This document shows positions 22,581 to 29,447 of a stretch of DNA of 64,000 nucleotides, piece by piece. This DNA comes from Hyalangium ruber. GTDB taxonomy: Bacteria > Myxococcota > Myxococcia > Myxococcales > Myxococcaceae. The notes beneath the pieces are model-generated. The model did not search any database. It was not told where the DNA came from and was given only the letters and a program-made list of their open reading frames with translations. The position numbers and the translations under genes are program-made. The stretch lies in assembly GCF_034259325.1 (NCBI RefSeq), contig NZ_JAXIVS010000006.1, forward strand, positions 496,001-560,000, written 5' to 3'. Position 1 is the first letter of the stretch. The number at the start of each line of letters is the position of its first letter.

Positions 22581-23387
22581 TTAATCCACCAGGCGGCGGT
22601 GCTGCAGGCACGGCAGGTTGCGGCGGATGCGGGCCTGGAGGTCCGGGTCCACCGGCGCCAGCGCCAGCCCCTCTCCCTCCGAGGCCCGCGCGGTGACGAG
22701 CCCCCATGGGTCCACCACCATGGCGTGACCATAGGTGACGCGCTTGTCGGAGTGCCGCCCACCTTGTGCGGGGGCGATGACGTAGCACTGGTTCTCGATG
22801 GCGCGGGCGCGCAGCAGCACCTCCCAGTGGTCCTTGCCCGTCATCAAGGTGAAGGCCGCTGGCACCGCCAGCATGGTGGCTCCCTGAGCGACCAGGCGTC
22901 GGTACAGCTCCGGGAAGCGCAGGTCGTAGCAGACGGAGAGCCCCAGCCGGCCCACCTCCGTGGTGGCCGCCACCACCTCTGTGCCGGGAGCCACCACCGC
23001 GGACTCGTGGTAGGTCGCCCCGTCTCCCACATCCACATCGAACAAGTGCATCTTGCGGTAGACGCCCAGCCGCTCGCCGTCCGGCCCGAAGAGGGTGCTG
23101 GTGTTGTAGAGGCGGCCGCCCGGGGCTCCGGTCTCGAGGATGGAGCCGGCCAGCACGGTGATGTTCTGCTCACGGGCCACCTCCGCCATGCGGGACAGGG
23201 TGGGGCCCTCCAGGGACTCGGCGGCGCTGGGACGTTCGACCTCGGAGCCCATCCAGCTGAAGTTCTCGGGCAGCCCCACCAGACGGGCTCCCAACTTCGC
23301 CGCCTGCCGGACGAGCCGGGTGGCGACTTCGAGGTTGTAGGCCTTGTCCGCGGTGGACACCATCTGAGCGGCGGCGATCAGGTGCAT
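22581..23387 (-). CDS. Nitrilase-superfamily amidase (deaminated-glutathione amidase type)
   Basis: 268 aa. The catalytic Glu-Lys-Cys triad is visible: L-P-E-N-F (Glu near 41), Y-R-K-M-H (Lys near 113) and V-C-Y-D-L-R-F-P-E-L (Cys near 153). The last motif and K-M-H-L-F-D-V-D are typical of the Nit1/YbeM branch, which removes the toxic amide from deaminated glutathione. The exact substrate is inferred from these motifs. There is no Shine-Dalgarno, but a TATAAC box lies 6 nt before the ATG (see the promoter entry). It heads the minus-strand run but is 70 nt from the FecR gene. Confidence 0.9.
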   Translation of the reverse strand: MHLIAAAQMVSTADKAYNLEVATRLVRQAAKLGARLVGLPENFSWMGSEVERPSAAESLEGPTLSRMAEVAREQNITVLAGSILETGAPGGRLYNTSTLFGPDGERLGVYRKMHLFDVDVGDGATYHESAVVAPGTEVVAATTEVGRLGLSVCYDLRFPELYRRLVAQGATMLAVPAAFTLMTGKDHWEVLLRARAIENQCYVIAPAQGGRHSDKRVTYGHAMVVDPWGLVTARASEGEGLALAPVDPDLQARIRRNLPCLQHRRLVD

Positions 23388-23399
23388 GGGGGCGTTATA
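23388..23399 (-). promoter_or_regulatory. -10-like box directly before the nitrilase ATG (possible leaderless start)
   Basis: On the minus strand TATAAC (23399-23394) is followed by six bases and then the ATG at 23387. A -10 hexamer at this distance would place the transcription start at or next to the ATG. No clear -35 and no Shine-Dalgarno are present. The same arrangement occurs before the OmpA-like gene and the lipoprotein gene at 46255. Confidence 0.45.
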
Positions 23400-23481
23400 A
23401 CGGGATGGAGGGCGTGGAACCCTTGGGAATCATTGTCCTTGGGGGCCGTGTTCTACCTTGAGCATGGGTGCGTCATCCTTT

Positions 23482-23575
23482 ACACGCCGTCTGGGCGTGT
23501 GCTAGGGGACCCGCCCGACATTTTTCGACGGCAGTTCTTCGAAAAGTGGGCCGACGTGCCCGCTTTTCTTTTTTT
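23482..23575 (+). promoter_or_regulatory. Structured leader of the rimP-nusA-infB operon, candidate attenuator
   Basis: Three hairpins can be drawn. P1 is a 7-bp stem 23482-23488 with 23494-23500. P2 is a 10-bp stem 23519-23528 with 23539-23548 (one G-U pair, 10-nt loop). P3 is a 10-bp stem 23542-23551 with 23558-23567 (one U-G pair), followed by T7 at 23569-23575. P2 and P3 share bases 23542-23548, so only one can form. P3 with its U run is an intrinsic terminator, and P2 would then be the antiterminator. The leader precedes rimP by 20 nt. In E. coli the homologous operon is known to be controlled through its leader with NusA involved; a related logic is inferred here. Confidence 0.6.
23542..23575 (+). 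terminator. Intrinsic terminator within the rimP leader
   Basis: A 10-bp stem (AAAAGTGGGC with GCCCGCTTTT, one U-G wobble) and a 6-nt loop are followed by C and seven T residues. It lies 20 nt upstream of the rimP ATG, inside the presumed transcript. It could instead be read as a terminator for anything entering from upstream, but the upstream gene points away, which favours attenuation. Confidence 0.7.
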
Positions 23576-23595
23576 GGAGCCAGGTTTCCGGACGC

Positions 23596-24081
23596 ATGGC
23601 GGAGAGCAACTTCAAGCAGACGGTGGAAGAGCGGGCGATGAGCCTGCTGGAGCCCATCGTTGCGGGCGAGGGGCTGGAACTCGTCGACCTCGAGTTCCTC
23701 CGCGAGCGCGAGGGGTGGGTGTTGCGCCTGTTCATCGACAAGCCTGGCGGTCGGGTGGGCTTGGACGAATGCACGCAGGTGTCCCGGGCGGTGGAGCCAA
23801 GCCTGGACGTCGAGGATTTCATCCCCAACGAGTACAACCTCGAGGTCTCCAGCCCCGGGGTCAACCGGCCTCTGAAGAAGCCGGCCCACTACGCGCGGGT
23901 GAAGGGACAGAAGGTCAAGGTGAAGACCTTCGGTCCCATCGGCGACCCGCCCCGCAAGAACTTCACTGGCACGCTCGCTGAGGTGACAGGGGAGGACATC
24001 GCGGTCGAAGTGGAGGGGGCGGGCAGCTTCCGCATCCCCTTCAAGGACATCGCCAAGGCCAACCTGGAGTTCGAGTTCTAG
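23596..24081 (+). CDS. rimP: Ribosome maturation factor RimP
   Basis: 161 aa from ATG 23596, with GGAG about 16 nt upstream. The N-terminal domain has L-E-L-V-D-L-E-F and L-R-L-F-I-D-K-P-G-G; the centre has the family signature E-V-S-S-P-G-V-N-R-P-L; the C-terminal SH3-like domain ends F-K-D-I-A-K-A-N-L-E-F. RimP assists 30S assembly. It is the first gene of the rimP-nusA-ylxR-infB order found in most bacteria, and it follows the structured leader. Confidence 0.97.
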   Translation: MAESNFKQTVEERAMSLLEPIVAGEGLELVDLEFLREREGWVLRLFIDKPGGRVGLDECTQVSRAVEPSLDVEDFIPNEYNLEVSSPGVNRPLKKPAHYARVKGQKVKVKTFGPIGDPPRKNFTGTLAEVTGEDIAVEVEGAGSFRIPFKDIAKANLEFEF

Positions 24082-24146: not shown

Positions 24147-25844
<1,698 letters not shown>

Positions 25845-25865: not shown

Positions 25866-26171
25866 ATGAGCCCGAAGTCCCGTTCCGGCCCCTCGCAGGG
25901 CCCTCTGCCAGAAGGGCCCGTTCGCAGCTGTGTCGGCTGCGGAGCCCGGCGCTCACAAGCCGAGCTCACCCGGGTCGCCTTGGACCCGGAAGGTGAAGTG
26001 GTGGTGGACAAGGAGAGGCGGCTGCCCGGCAGGGGCGCCTACCTCTGCGGTGCCGGGTGTCTGACGGCGGCGCTCAAGCGGAAGGCCTTCGGGCGGGCCT
26101 TTCGAGGAAGGGCGGGCAAGGTTGACCCGCTGAAGCTCGGGCAGGCGTGGGAGTCTGGCTCGGGGCCTTGA
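25866..26171 (+). CDS. ylxR: YlxR/RnpM-family RNA-binding protein (DUF448)
   Basis: 101 aa. The family core is clear: R-S-C-V-G-C-G-A-R-R, then G-R-G-A-Y-L-C-G-A-G-C, with a basic helical end (L-K-R-K-A-F-G-R-A-F-R). It carries a longer, Pro/Ser-rich N-terminus than the roughly 90-aa Gram-positive proteins. The Bacillus homologue binds RNase P RNA, and other members act as nucleoid-associated regulators. Position between nusA (21 nt) and infB (99 nt) is the standard one. Confidence 0.93.
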   Translation: MSPKSRSGPSQGPLPEGPVRSCVGCGARRSQAELTRVALDPEGEVVVDKERRLPGRGAYLCGAGCLTAALKRKAFGRAFRGRAGKVDPLKLGQAWESGSGP

Positions 26172-26270: not shown

Positions 26271-29200
26271 ATGTCGAAGAAGCGCGTTCACGAAATCGCC
26301 AAAGAGCTCAAGAACCACGGCATCGAGCTCGACAACAAGGAGGTCGTCACCGAGCTCGCGGCGCTCGGTTACGACGTCAAGAGCCATTCGTCCTCGCTCG
26401 ATGACGATCAGGCCACGGCTGCGGTCCAGAAGATCTTGGACAAGCGCAAGCCGAAGCAGGCCGCACCGCCGGTGACGGCCAAGGGCTTCGTGGTGCGCCG
26501 CAAGGTCGGCCCGCCCGCCGGAGCCACGAGCGAGCAGGCCCCCGAGGCGGCCTCCGAGGCTTCACAGGCGGCTCAGCCCGAGCCCGAGGTGGAGGCTCCT
26601 CGCGTCGCCGCGCAGCCCGAGCCCGAGCCTGAGGTCGAGGCTCCTCGCGCCGCCGCGCAGCCCGAGCCAGTAGCCGAGGCGCCGAAGGCTCCCGCGCAGC
26701 CCGAGCCTGCCACCACCGAGGCTCCTCGCGCCGCCGCGCAGCCCGAGCCTGTGGCCGAGGCGCCGAAGGCTCCCGCGCAGCCCGAGCCTGCCACCACCGA
26801 GGCTCCTCGCGCCGCCGCGCAGCCCGAGCCCGTGGCTGAGGCGCCGAAGGCTCCCGCGCAGCCCCAGCCCGCCGTCGAGGCGCCCCGGGCCGCCGTGCAG
26901 CCGCCGGTCTCCACGCCGCCGCGTTCTCCCGTTCAGGAAAGGTCTTCCTTGCCCACGACTCCCCCGCGCACGCCGGTTCCTCCGACAGTCCGGACGCCCG
27001 GCACGCAGGCGACCGTCATCTCCCGTCCGGCGCCCGGCATGTCCGGTCGTCCCGGTGGTCCGTCCCAGGGGGGTCGTCCCGGTGGTCCGGGTGGCCGTCC
27101 TGGCGCGCCGATGCATGGCGGTCGTCCGGGTGGTCCCGGGCAGCAGCACCGGCCGGGTGGTCCCGGTCAGTACCGTTCGAGTGGTGGCCCGGGCTCCGGT
27201 CCGGTGCGTCCCACCTCTTCGCCGGGAATTGGCGGTGGCGCTCAGGCTTCGGCCTCGCCGACCCAGCCCGGGCAGCCGCCCGTCATGGTCGGCGGCGTGC
27301 CGCACGCCCCGGTCTCGCAGGAGCAGCGCCAGATGCGCCCCACGGCCACCCAGGCCGTCGTCATCTCGCGCCCGCTCATCCAGGTTCGCCGCGTAACGCC
27401 CACGACGTCCGCGCAGAAGCAGTACCCGATGGCGCCGGGCAAGAAGGCCATCGGCGAGGTGCGCGAGTTCAAGGTCGTCCCGGATCACGCCGGTCGCGGC
27501 CGTGAGCTGGTCGACGTCTCCAAGAACAAGGACAAGGCGCCGCGCAAGAGGGGTGGACCCAATGACACGTCCATCTCCAAGCAGGAGCTGACGGACCTGG
27601 TCTGGGGTCGCGTCAACATCCCCGTTCGCGGCAAGAAGAAGAAGCCGACGAAGAAGGGCGCCAAGACGCAGATCACCCAGATGGCCGAGGAGAAGAAGGT
27701 CATCAAGCTCCAGGAGGGCATCAGCGTGTCCGACCTGGGTCAGCGCATGGGTATCCGCACCGCGGACATCATCAAGAAGCTGATGGGTCTGGGGAAGATG
27801 GCCACCGCCAACCAGATGGTGGACGCGGACACCGCGGAGCTCATCGCCACCGACTACGGCTGGAAGGTGGACCGGGTGGGCTTCGAGGTGGAGGACTACC
27901 TGCCCGAGGTGGAGCTGAAGCCCGAGGACGAGCGCACCCGTCCGCCGGTCGTCACCGTCATGGGCCACGTCGACCACGGAAAGACGAGCCTGCTGGACGC
28001 CATCCGCTCGGCCAACGTGGCCTCGGGCGAGGCGGGCGGCATTACGCAGCACATCGGCGCCTACAGCGTCACCACCAAGCGCGGTGACCTGACGTTCCTG
28101 GACACCCCGGGCCACGAGGCCTTCACGTCCATGCGCGCTCGCGGCGCCAACGTGACGGACATCGTCATCCTGGTGGTGGCCGCGGACGACGGCGTGATGC
28201 CTCAGACGATCGAGGCCATCAAGCACGCCAAGGCCGCCGAGGTCCCCATCGTCGTCGCCATCAACAAGATGGACGTGCCGGGCGCCAACCCGGACCGCGT
28301 GAAGAAGGACCTGGCCAGCCACGAGCTGGTGCCCGAGGAGTGGGGCGGCGAGACCATCATGGTCCCCGTCTCCGCCAAGCAGAAGATGGGCTTGGACCTG
28401 CTGCTGGAGAACGTCGTGCTGCAGGCCGAGGTGCTCGAGCTGACGAGCAACCCGGCTCGTCCGGCGGTGGGCGCCATCATCGAGGCCAAGCTGGATCGCG
28501 GTCGTGGCCCCGTGGCCACCGTGCTGGTGCAGGAGGGCACGCTGCGGTTGGGCGATGCCATCGTCACTGGCACCCACTACGGGCGCGTTCGCGCGATGAA
28601 CAACAGCCGCGGCGAGATGGTGAAGGAAGTGCTGCCGGGCTACTGCGCGGAGGTCATCGGCCTGTCGGGCGTGCCCACCGCGGGTGACGCCATCAACGTG
28701 GTGGCGGACGAGAAGGCGGCCAAGCAGATCGGCGATCACCGCGGCATGAAGGAGCGTCAGGCGGACCTCAGCAAGGTCAGCCGCGAGACGCTGGATCAGC
28801 TCTTCGCCAAGACGAAGGCGGGCGGCGGTCCCAAGGAGCTGCGCGTCGTCATCAAGGCGGACGTGCAGGGCTCGGCCGAGGCCGTCAAGCAGGCGGTGCA
28901 GAAGCTGGCCACCCACAAGGTCAAGGTGGAGGTCATCCACACCGGCGTGGGTGCCATCACCGAGTCGGACGTGATGCGCGCGGCTGCTTCCAAGGGCCTG
29001 GTGCTGGGCTTCAACGTGAAGCCGGAGTCGGGCGCGGAGTCGGCGGCCAAGGCTCAGGACGTCACGCTGCAGGGCTACAGCATCATCTACGAGCTCATCG
29101 ACGGTGTGCGCACGGCCATGGAGGAGCTGCTGGAGCCCATCCGCACCGAGCGCAAGCTGGGTCGCGCGGAGGTCCGCAACACCTTCAACGTGCCGAAGCT

Positions 29201-29447
29201 GGGCACCATCGCCGGTGCGGCGGTGCTGGAGGGTGTCATCCGCCGCGGCGCCTTCGTGCGCCTCATGCGCGAGAACAAGCAGCTGTTCTCCGGAAAAATG
29301 GCGTCGCTCAAGCGCTTCAAGGACGACGTCAAGGAAGTGGCGCAGGGCTTCGAGTGCGGTATCGGCATCGAGAACTACAACGACCTCAAGCAGGGCGACA
29401 TCATCGAGGCCTACGAGATCGAGGAGACGCGCCAGAGCCTGACGTAA
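26271..29447 (+). CDS. infB: Translation initiation factor IF-2
   Basis: 1058 aa. The N-terminal IF2_N helix ([11 protein letters not shown]) is followed by a very long low-complexity region (residues about 80-430): an 81-bp Ala/Pro/Glu repeat, then Gly/Arg/Pro-rich sequence of the kind G-G-R-P-G-G-P-G. A second IF2_N module (about 485-535) precedes the GTPase domain with G-H-V-D-H-G-K-T (near 565), D-T-P-G-H-E and N-K-M-D. Domains II, III (A-D-V-Q-G-S-A-E-A) and the fMet-tRNA-binding C-terminal domain are complete. IF-2 places initiator tRNA on the 30S subunit. Myxobacterial IF-2 is known to be unusually long; the disordered part is not needed for GTPase activity in the family. Confidence 0.97.
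26637..26878 (+). repeat. 81-bp direct repeats in infB (27-residue Ala/Pro/Glu unit)
   Basis: Units start at 26637, 26718 and 26799, exactly 81 bp apart. The first two copies are nearly identical in DNA and the third diverges in its last third. Each encodes [13 protein letters not shown] followed by [11 protein letters not shown]. The near identity, including third positions, points to recent duplication within the disordered linker. Confidence 0.9.

Follow-up and report, generated by a model that had tools for sequence, protein, structure and literature searches.

A probable transcription attenuator with an antiterminator conserved in Myxococcia at the head of the rimP-nusA-ylxR-infB operon of Hyalangium ruber

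The rimP-nusA-ylxR-infB locus

The window (the whole stretch of DNA analysed, 64,000 nucleotides from Hyalangium ruber) carries rimP, nusA, ylxR and infB behind a short leader with two overlapping hairpins, and this element sits between rimP (start at 23596) and a divergently oriented CN_hydrolase gene on the minus strand (start at 23387). The RimP protein encoded here is 91-92% identical to the RimP of Hyalangium versicolor and to that of a Myxococcaceae MAG. The features of the leader and the operon are as follows.

23479-23484, plus strand: -35 hexamer TTTACA, from comparison across leaders
23500-23508, plus strand: extended -10 element TGC TAGGGG (TAGGGG at 23503-23508), 18-nt spacer from the -35, from comparison across leaders
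23513-23518, plus strand: predicted transcription start, most likely G23517 or A23518, placed by its spacing from the -10 element
23519-23528, plus strand: antiterminator 5' arm CAUUUUUCGA, from folding; at predicted RNA positions +1 to +5
23539-23548, plus strand: antiterminator 3' arm UCGAAAAGUG, from folding and covariation; overlaps the lower arm of the terminator
23541-23568, plus strand: intrinsic terminator hairpin of 11 bp with the rimP-leader GGGC..GCCC motif, from terminator scan and folding; kept in relatives
23569-23575, plus strand: U tract (T7), from the sequence and the terminator scan
23576-23579, plus strand: GGAG, possible Shine-Dalgarno sequence of rimP, adjoining the U tract, from the sequence
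23596-24081, plus strand: rimP (Pfam RimP_N, 94.6 bits, and DUF150_C)
24147-25844, plus strand: nusA (Pfam NusA_N, S1, KH_5, HHH_5)
25866-26171, plus strand: ylxR (Pfam YlxR)
26271-29447, plus strand: infB, encoding IF2 (Pfam IF-2, GTP_EFTU, IF2_N)

Several smaller features surround the leader. The GGAG sequence is separated from the rimP ATG by 16 nt, which is above the usual Shine-Dalgarno spacing, and TTTTTGGAG occurs likewise in many relatives. Within infB, positions 26574-26902 hold about three copies of an 81-bp tandem repeat (92-96% matches) that codes for a Pro/Ala/Glu-rich linker. On the minus strand (23385-23401) a TATAAC box stands 6 nt before the ATG of the divergent CN_hydrolase gene, which suggests that its mRNA is leaderless; a GTTATAAC-like box is found 4-9 nt from the start of the divergent gene in 33 of the 56 leaders of family f1. 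Upstream of the rimP promoter lies the block GGAACCCTTGGGAAT (23416-23430), with a similar block in 25 of these 56 leaders.

Two hairpins that share eight bases

The terminator arms GAAAAGUGGGC and GCCCGCUUUUC pair 23541-23551 with 23558-23568 to give an 11-bp stem, in which the GGGC at 23548-23551 pairs with the GCCC at 23558-23561. The fold of 23535-23575 has an energy of -17.9 kcal/mol (z -4.1), which is equalled by none of 200 shuffles. An earlier, sequence-only reading had recognised this stem but missed its outer pair, giving 10 bp at 23542-23567. The competing 10-bp hairpin that it placed within 23519-23548 is borne out by folding and by conservation, and the overlap it described is real, although by the fold the two hairpins have eight bases in common (23541-23548) and not seven.

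Taken alone, the antiterminator of the window has an energy of -8.9 kcal/mol against -17.9 kcal/mol for the terminator. When successively longer prefixes of the predicted RNA are folded, the antiterminator is complete at 32 nt; between 44 and 50 nt it stands together with the upper GGGC/GCCC stem, its outer pairs opening from 47 nt onward, and at 53 nt the full terminator replaces it. The exclusion between the two structures is hence partial, being confined to the terminator's lower A/U half: the claim that one structure forbids the other holds for this half, whereas the upper GGGC/GCCC stem coexists with the antiterminator. The terminator is the more stable hairpin in 64 of 75 leaders, by far in family f1, and the antiterminator is at least as stable as the terminator in families f2 (7/9) and f23 (3/3). 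The element is operon-specific, as three patterns that include the terminator and the antiterminator match once each in the organism's own 10.8-Mb genome, and the pattern search found no further copies there.

Promoter and predicted transcription start

A scan of the window with the E. coli promoter consensus gave no match, and the promoter emerged solely from the comparison of leaders. A -35 element scoring at least 4/6 is present in 69 of 74 leaders as opposed to 8.8% of random positions, the spacer is 17 or 18 nt in all 74, and TGn precedes the TA of the -10 element in most. In 74 of 75 motif-bearing leaders this TA precedes the antiterminator arm by 11-17 nt, mostly 13-16, the range of 11-17 nt having been preset by the analyst for the search. 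The RNA is thus predicted from the sequence to start at about position 23517, at the first bases of the antiterminator.

The hairpin at 23482-23500 that the sequence-only reading noted further upstream folds well by itself (-12.8 kcal/mol, z -4.2). However, it is located between the conserved -35 and extended -10 elements and therefore is probably not part of the RNA made from the predicted promoter, and its ends, ACA..TGT, are in part promoter consensus. This spacer sequence, ACACGCC..GGCGTGT, is palindromic; palindromes of 5 bp or more occur in the spacers of 46 of 49 f1 leaders but in only 6 of 25 others, and they may serve as an operator or simply result from the ACA and TGT ends of the promoter elements. 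The suggestion that a ligand or a ribosome acts on this hairpin finds no support, given its location in the promoter and an antiterminator loop of 3-27 nt. In the window, no start codon with a Shine-Dalgarno sequence lies between the predicted +1 and the terminator, a result that depends on the predicted start. A ribosome-mediated attenuator with a leader peptide therefore finds no support in the window. Nor does a riboswitch or other ligand-sensing leader, since there is no conserved aptamer-like region, no Rfam match, and a variable loop of 3-27 nt.

Conservation of the leader in relatives

With RimP as the query, 37 loci were recovered from named genomes, and 137 of the phylum's 146 genomes had a match. 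Leaders were collected by place from 60 genomes of the phylum, from 29 loci of the phylum search and from 35 loci in named genomes, which together with the window make 125 from overlapping sources. The terminator finder missed eight of the 125, of which three (L030, L038, L078) were entered manually and the other five (L075, L113, L124, L126, L128) excluded; no terminator was found in L075, L113, L126 and L128, and L124 has only a different GCGGGC..GCCCGC hairpin. After removal of duplicates and of the five leaders with no located terminator, 95 distinct rows were tested. A leader was counted as pairing when at least six bases of the terminator's 8-nt lower arm were paired upstream in the minimum-energy fold, with shuffled upstream sequence as the control.

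Of 77 Myxococcia leaders, 72 pair the lower terminator arm with upstream sequence, compared with 24-31% of shuffles; they comprise 52 of 56 leaders of family f1 (shuffled 24%) and 20 of 21 of families f2-f10 (31%). Pairing is also seen in f23 (3/3; shuffled 29%), f21 (1/1; 18%) and f12 (1/2), and it is absent from the single f15 leader (0/1). In f13 it is at chance level (3/8; 29%). Seven f13 leaders (L110, L112, L115, L117, L119, L120, L121) share another type of conserved leader, approximately RCTTCTTGAG and then CATCTTAGAGTGGG, whose short outer pairing (NCUU with GAGUG) possibly acts as a weaker antiterminator; L121 contains a tandem duplication of part of this leader.

Outside the phylum the pairing is at chance level in Desulfobacterota (4/24; 23% shuffled) and in Bacillota (7/29; 19% shuffled). 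These rows are 53 of 58 fetched leaders whose core was placed by a permissive pattern, so some of the cores may be wrong. Three outgroup loci from named genomes gave 2/3 (20% shuffled). The terminator itself was called by script in 42 of the 58 Desulfobacterota and Bacillota leaders, including one false call at a tRNA (L147), and was found by eye in 8 of the 16 misses. A pattern of CATTTT, 8-34 nt and AAAGTGGGC matches 107 of 145 genomes of the order, and 92 of 115 good ones, against three genomes for the reversed control. The few matches off the locus are in G242 and, as extras, in G081, G088 and G115; those in G115 and G242 have no terminator and look like chance. One record, labelled Comamonas sp. 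KCTC 72670 (L033), has a Myxococcus-like rimP region on a contig equal in length to one of genome G073 and is probably a mislabelled or contaminated assembly.

Covariation of the antiterminator

For the covariation count, 17 Myxococcota leaders that do not have the CA[TC]TT motif were dropped and 37 distinct arm pairs were used. The 5' arm was thus selected by its motif, so the evidence comes from pairs 6-10 alone and pairs 1-5 are discounted. Across the 37 arm pairs, standard pairs occupy 88.6% of cells as opposed to 78.7% after shuffling, and 43 cells are changed on both sides as opposed to 19.9. The covariation score is 0.350 compared with 0.184 (sd 0.018) for shuffles, none of 500 of which reaches it, and no slid register exceeds 0.137. 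Five pairs show a double change, a number that is not above shuffles (139/500).

As shuffles ignore kinship, the changes were also rebuilt by parsimony on a RimP tree, which covered 48 of 53 rows. At the true register 11 double changes keep the pairing; registers slid by -3, -2 and -1 give 2, 6 and 3, and those slid by +1, +2 and +3 give 2, 0 and 0. Pair-breaking changes at the true register number 27 and fall mostly on the inner pairs 8-10. Examples of matching arms are CAUUUUUCG/CGAAAAGUG in f1, CAUUUUCG/CGAAAGUG in f2, CAUUUAG/CUAAGUG in f23 and CACUUUC/GAAAGUG in L030. The loop between the arms varies in length (3-27 nt) and sequence, and in f2 it holds a nested CCCGGG hairpin. The covariation check proposed with the sequence-only reading has thereby been carried out, and the score together with the 11 compensatory double changes supports an attenuator of mutually exclusive hairpins. 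The antiterminator is real and conserved in Myxococcia, and it seems to have been kept by evolution in the myxobacterial branch.

Relation to known leaders of NusA operons

The rimP-leader, as set out in the relevant passages of Naville and Gautheret (2010, PMC2965389), is a GGGc..gCCC terminator with a U stretch that precedes rimP-nusA-infB across phyla and for which feedback by NusA was proposed; it was the most frequent attenuator in their survey. The terminator of the window shares with it the place before rimP-nusA-infB, the GGGc..gCCC stem, the U stretch and the operon-specific motif, and is a member of this known and widespread family. According to the same passages no antiterminator was seen apart from a tandem arrangement in some Gammaproteobacteria (PMC2965389), whereas Myxococcia add a covarying 5' antiterminator at which the RNA is predicted to start. 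On that account the antiterminator of Myxococcia would be a lineage variant. The proposal that this species uses a leader of its own for the purpose served in E. coli therefore applies to the antiterminator, which is lineage-specific, but not to the terminator, which is the general rimP-leader of many phyla.

Rfam RF01770, the rimP leader of Gammaproteobacteria, is the same kind of element before the same operon. This 102-nt model matches E. coli K-12 with 102 bits as a positive control, and E. coli has two terminators between metY and rimP; at the gathering cut-off RF01770 matches neither the window nor L006, L094, L132 or L154, and no other Rfam model matches the window. A literature search found no report of a myxobacterial rimP-leader or of its antiterminator.

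An attenuator in the nusA leader of B. subtilis was reportedly described by Mondal et al. in 2016. A review states that NusA of this organism is autoregulated by NusA-stimulated termination in its own leader (PMC12288461), so that here too the operon encoding NusA has an intrinsic terminator in its 5' leader; the passage in question does not mention an antiterminator, and the tested Bacillota leaders pair upstream at chance (7/29). In S. agalactiae, transcription ahead of rimP is reported to stop 31 nt from where it starts, and negative feedback by NusA is proposed (PMC4448216). A short terminated RNA before rimP is again like that predicted for the window, but on the analyst's reading of PMC4448216 a stop at 31 nt leaves no room for a 5' antiterminator hairpin, unlike in Myxococcia.

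Which gene the leader serves

Matches to rimP and nusA are adjacent in 136 of the 137 genomes that have both. In the exception, G080 (family f5), the rimP gene, confirmed by Pfam, has no leader upstream (L113, L237), and a complete leader, GACAUUUUUGG..CUGAAAGUGGGC..GCCCACUUUUUUU, stands some 40 bp upstream of nusA, with infB next after nusA. In this leader the antiterminator has an energy of -20.7 and the terminator of -15.4. The position beside nusA and not rimP favours NusA over RimP as the protein served, on the evidence of a single genome in which the separation could be an assembly fault. Counting against the link to nusA, a Bacillota genome (G200) has nusA with no detected rimP and no such leader in about 1.3 kb upstream. 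Inspection by eye of 80 genomes of two other phyla gave no further informative separation of the two genes; among these, nusA of G223 is split over two contigs and the region of G151 stops at a contig end. There is no leader before nusA of G049 or before the second nusA copy of G139, which is found at G139:C68:59462-60649 (upstream DNA L233) and encodes a protein 60% identical to the NusA of the window.

Proposed mechanism and alternative explanations

The computed evidence, namely the two hairpins, their conservation and covariation in Myxococcia, the chance-level pairing in Desulfobacterota and Bacillota and, in G080, the leader's link to nusA, makes it probable that the operon is headed by a transcription attenuator in which branch migration is read by polymerase speed and NusA to give negative feedback. 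It is proposed that the RNA would start at about 23517 and that its first bases, CAUUUUUCGA, would pair with UCGAAAAGUG as soon as the latter leaves the polymerase, thus forming the antiterminator. The emerging 3' arm CGCUUUUC would displace the CAUUUUUCG strand by branch migration, with both strands competing for GAAAAGUG and the upper GGGC/GCCC stem already standing. If displacement were completed while the polymerase is on the U tract, transcription would stop after about 58 nt, and otherwise it would read through into rimP. Termination would be favoured whenever the polymerase is held at the U tract, above all by NusA, so that a surplus of NusA would lower the expression of its own operon.

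NusA feedback would be the best-supported agent by analogy with B. subtilis, S. agalactiae and E. coli, to which the leader beside nusA in G080 can be added. According to PMC8060035, dependence of a terminator on NusA or NusG is associated with A-U pairing at the bottom of the stem and with breaks in the U tract. The terminator stems of Myxococcia end in A-U pairs at the base, and 57 of the 77 leaders scored have a broken U tract. The window is not among these 57, and its perfect T7 and a terminator 9 kcal/mol more stable than the antiterminator may cause strong termination even without NusA. A search of the literature found no RNA, termination or NusA data for myxobacteria, start sites included.

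A constitutive partial terminator would let a fixed fraction of polymerases pass, the 5' hairpin tuning basal read-through or protecting the 5' end with no feedback. This is unlikely, though the missing ligand-binding region, the varying sequence and length of the loop and the far greater stability of the terminator in f1 would all agree with it: mere termination does not need a sequence kept across phyla (in part from the rimP-leader passages of PMC2965389), and in G080 the leader remains with nusA. RimP, IF2 or another ribosome-assembly factor could bind the conserved GGGC/GCCC hairpin in place of NusA, seeing that the operon also encodes RimP and IF2 and that the GGGC motif could be a protein contact site. 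The separation in G080, where the leader is not with rimP, disfavours RimP while leaving IF2 linked, and binding by any such factor is judged very unlikely.

Two further explanations concern the antiterminator. The RNA 5' end might act as a sensor, with nucleotide pools altering the CAUUUUU strand, and so the antiterminator, through choice of start site or slippage on the U run. The arm does begin at predicted positions +1 to +5 and often holds a U run, but this run falls to three where the partner strand changes (CACUUUC, CAUUUAG) and so follows complementarity and not run length, which renders slippage unlikely and leaves this explanation little credence. The inverted repeat ATTTTTCGA..TCGAAAAGT is palindromic and adjoins the promoter, as would befit a DNA operator that binds a repressor just downstream of it. 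However, the distance between the arms ranges from 3 to 27 nt, hairpins are nested in the loop, and the arms make free use of GU pairs, which would not be preserved in a DNA dyad. An operator was rejected on the variable spacing, which fits an RNA hairpin instead, and its probability is close to nil.

Significance

NusA is a core transcription factor that the 2010 survey only proposed as the regulator of the rimP-leader, and the genome in which rimP and nusA are separated with the leader at nusA provides comparative evidence on the gene that is served. The covarying antiterminator of a single class offers a compact system of about 60 nt for how NusA and polymerase speed choose between two folds, and it probably helps to hold the level of NusA steady. 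More tentatively, and with some doubt, it may be that the mRNA of Myxococcia carries the antiterminator strand as its first ten bases and that the leader of about 58 nt, lacking both an aptamer and a leader peptide, is a pure kinetic sensor. Branch migration between the RNA 5' end and the 3' arm of the terminator would then read the dwell time of the polymerase at the U tract and hence the NusA level. The general rimP-leader would then be an ancestral NusA homeostat to which Myxococcia have added a threshold.
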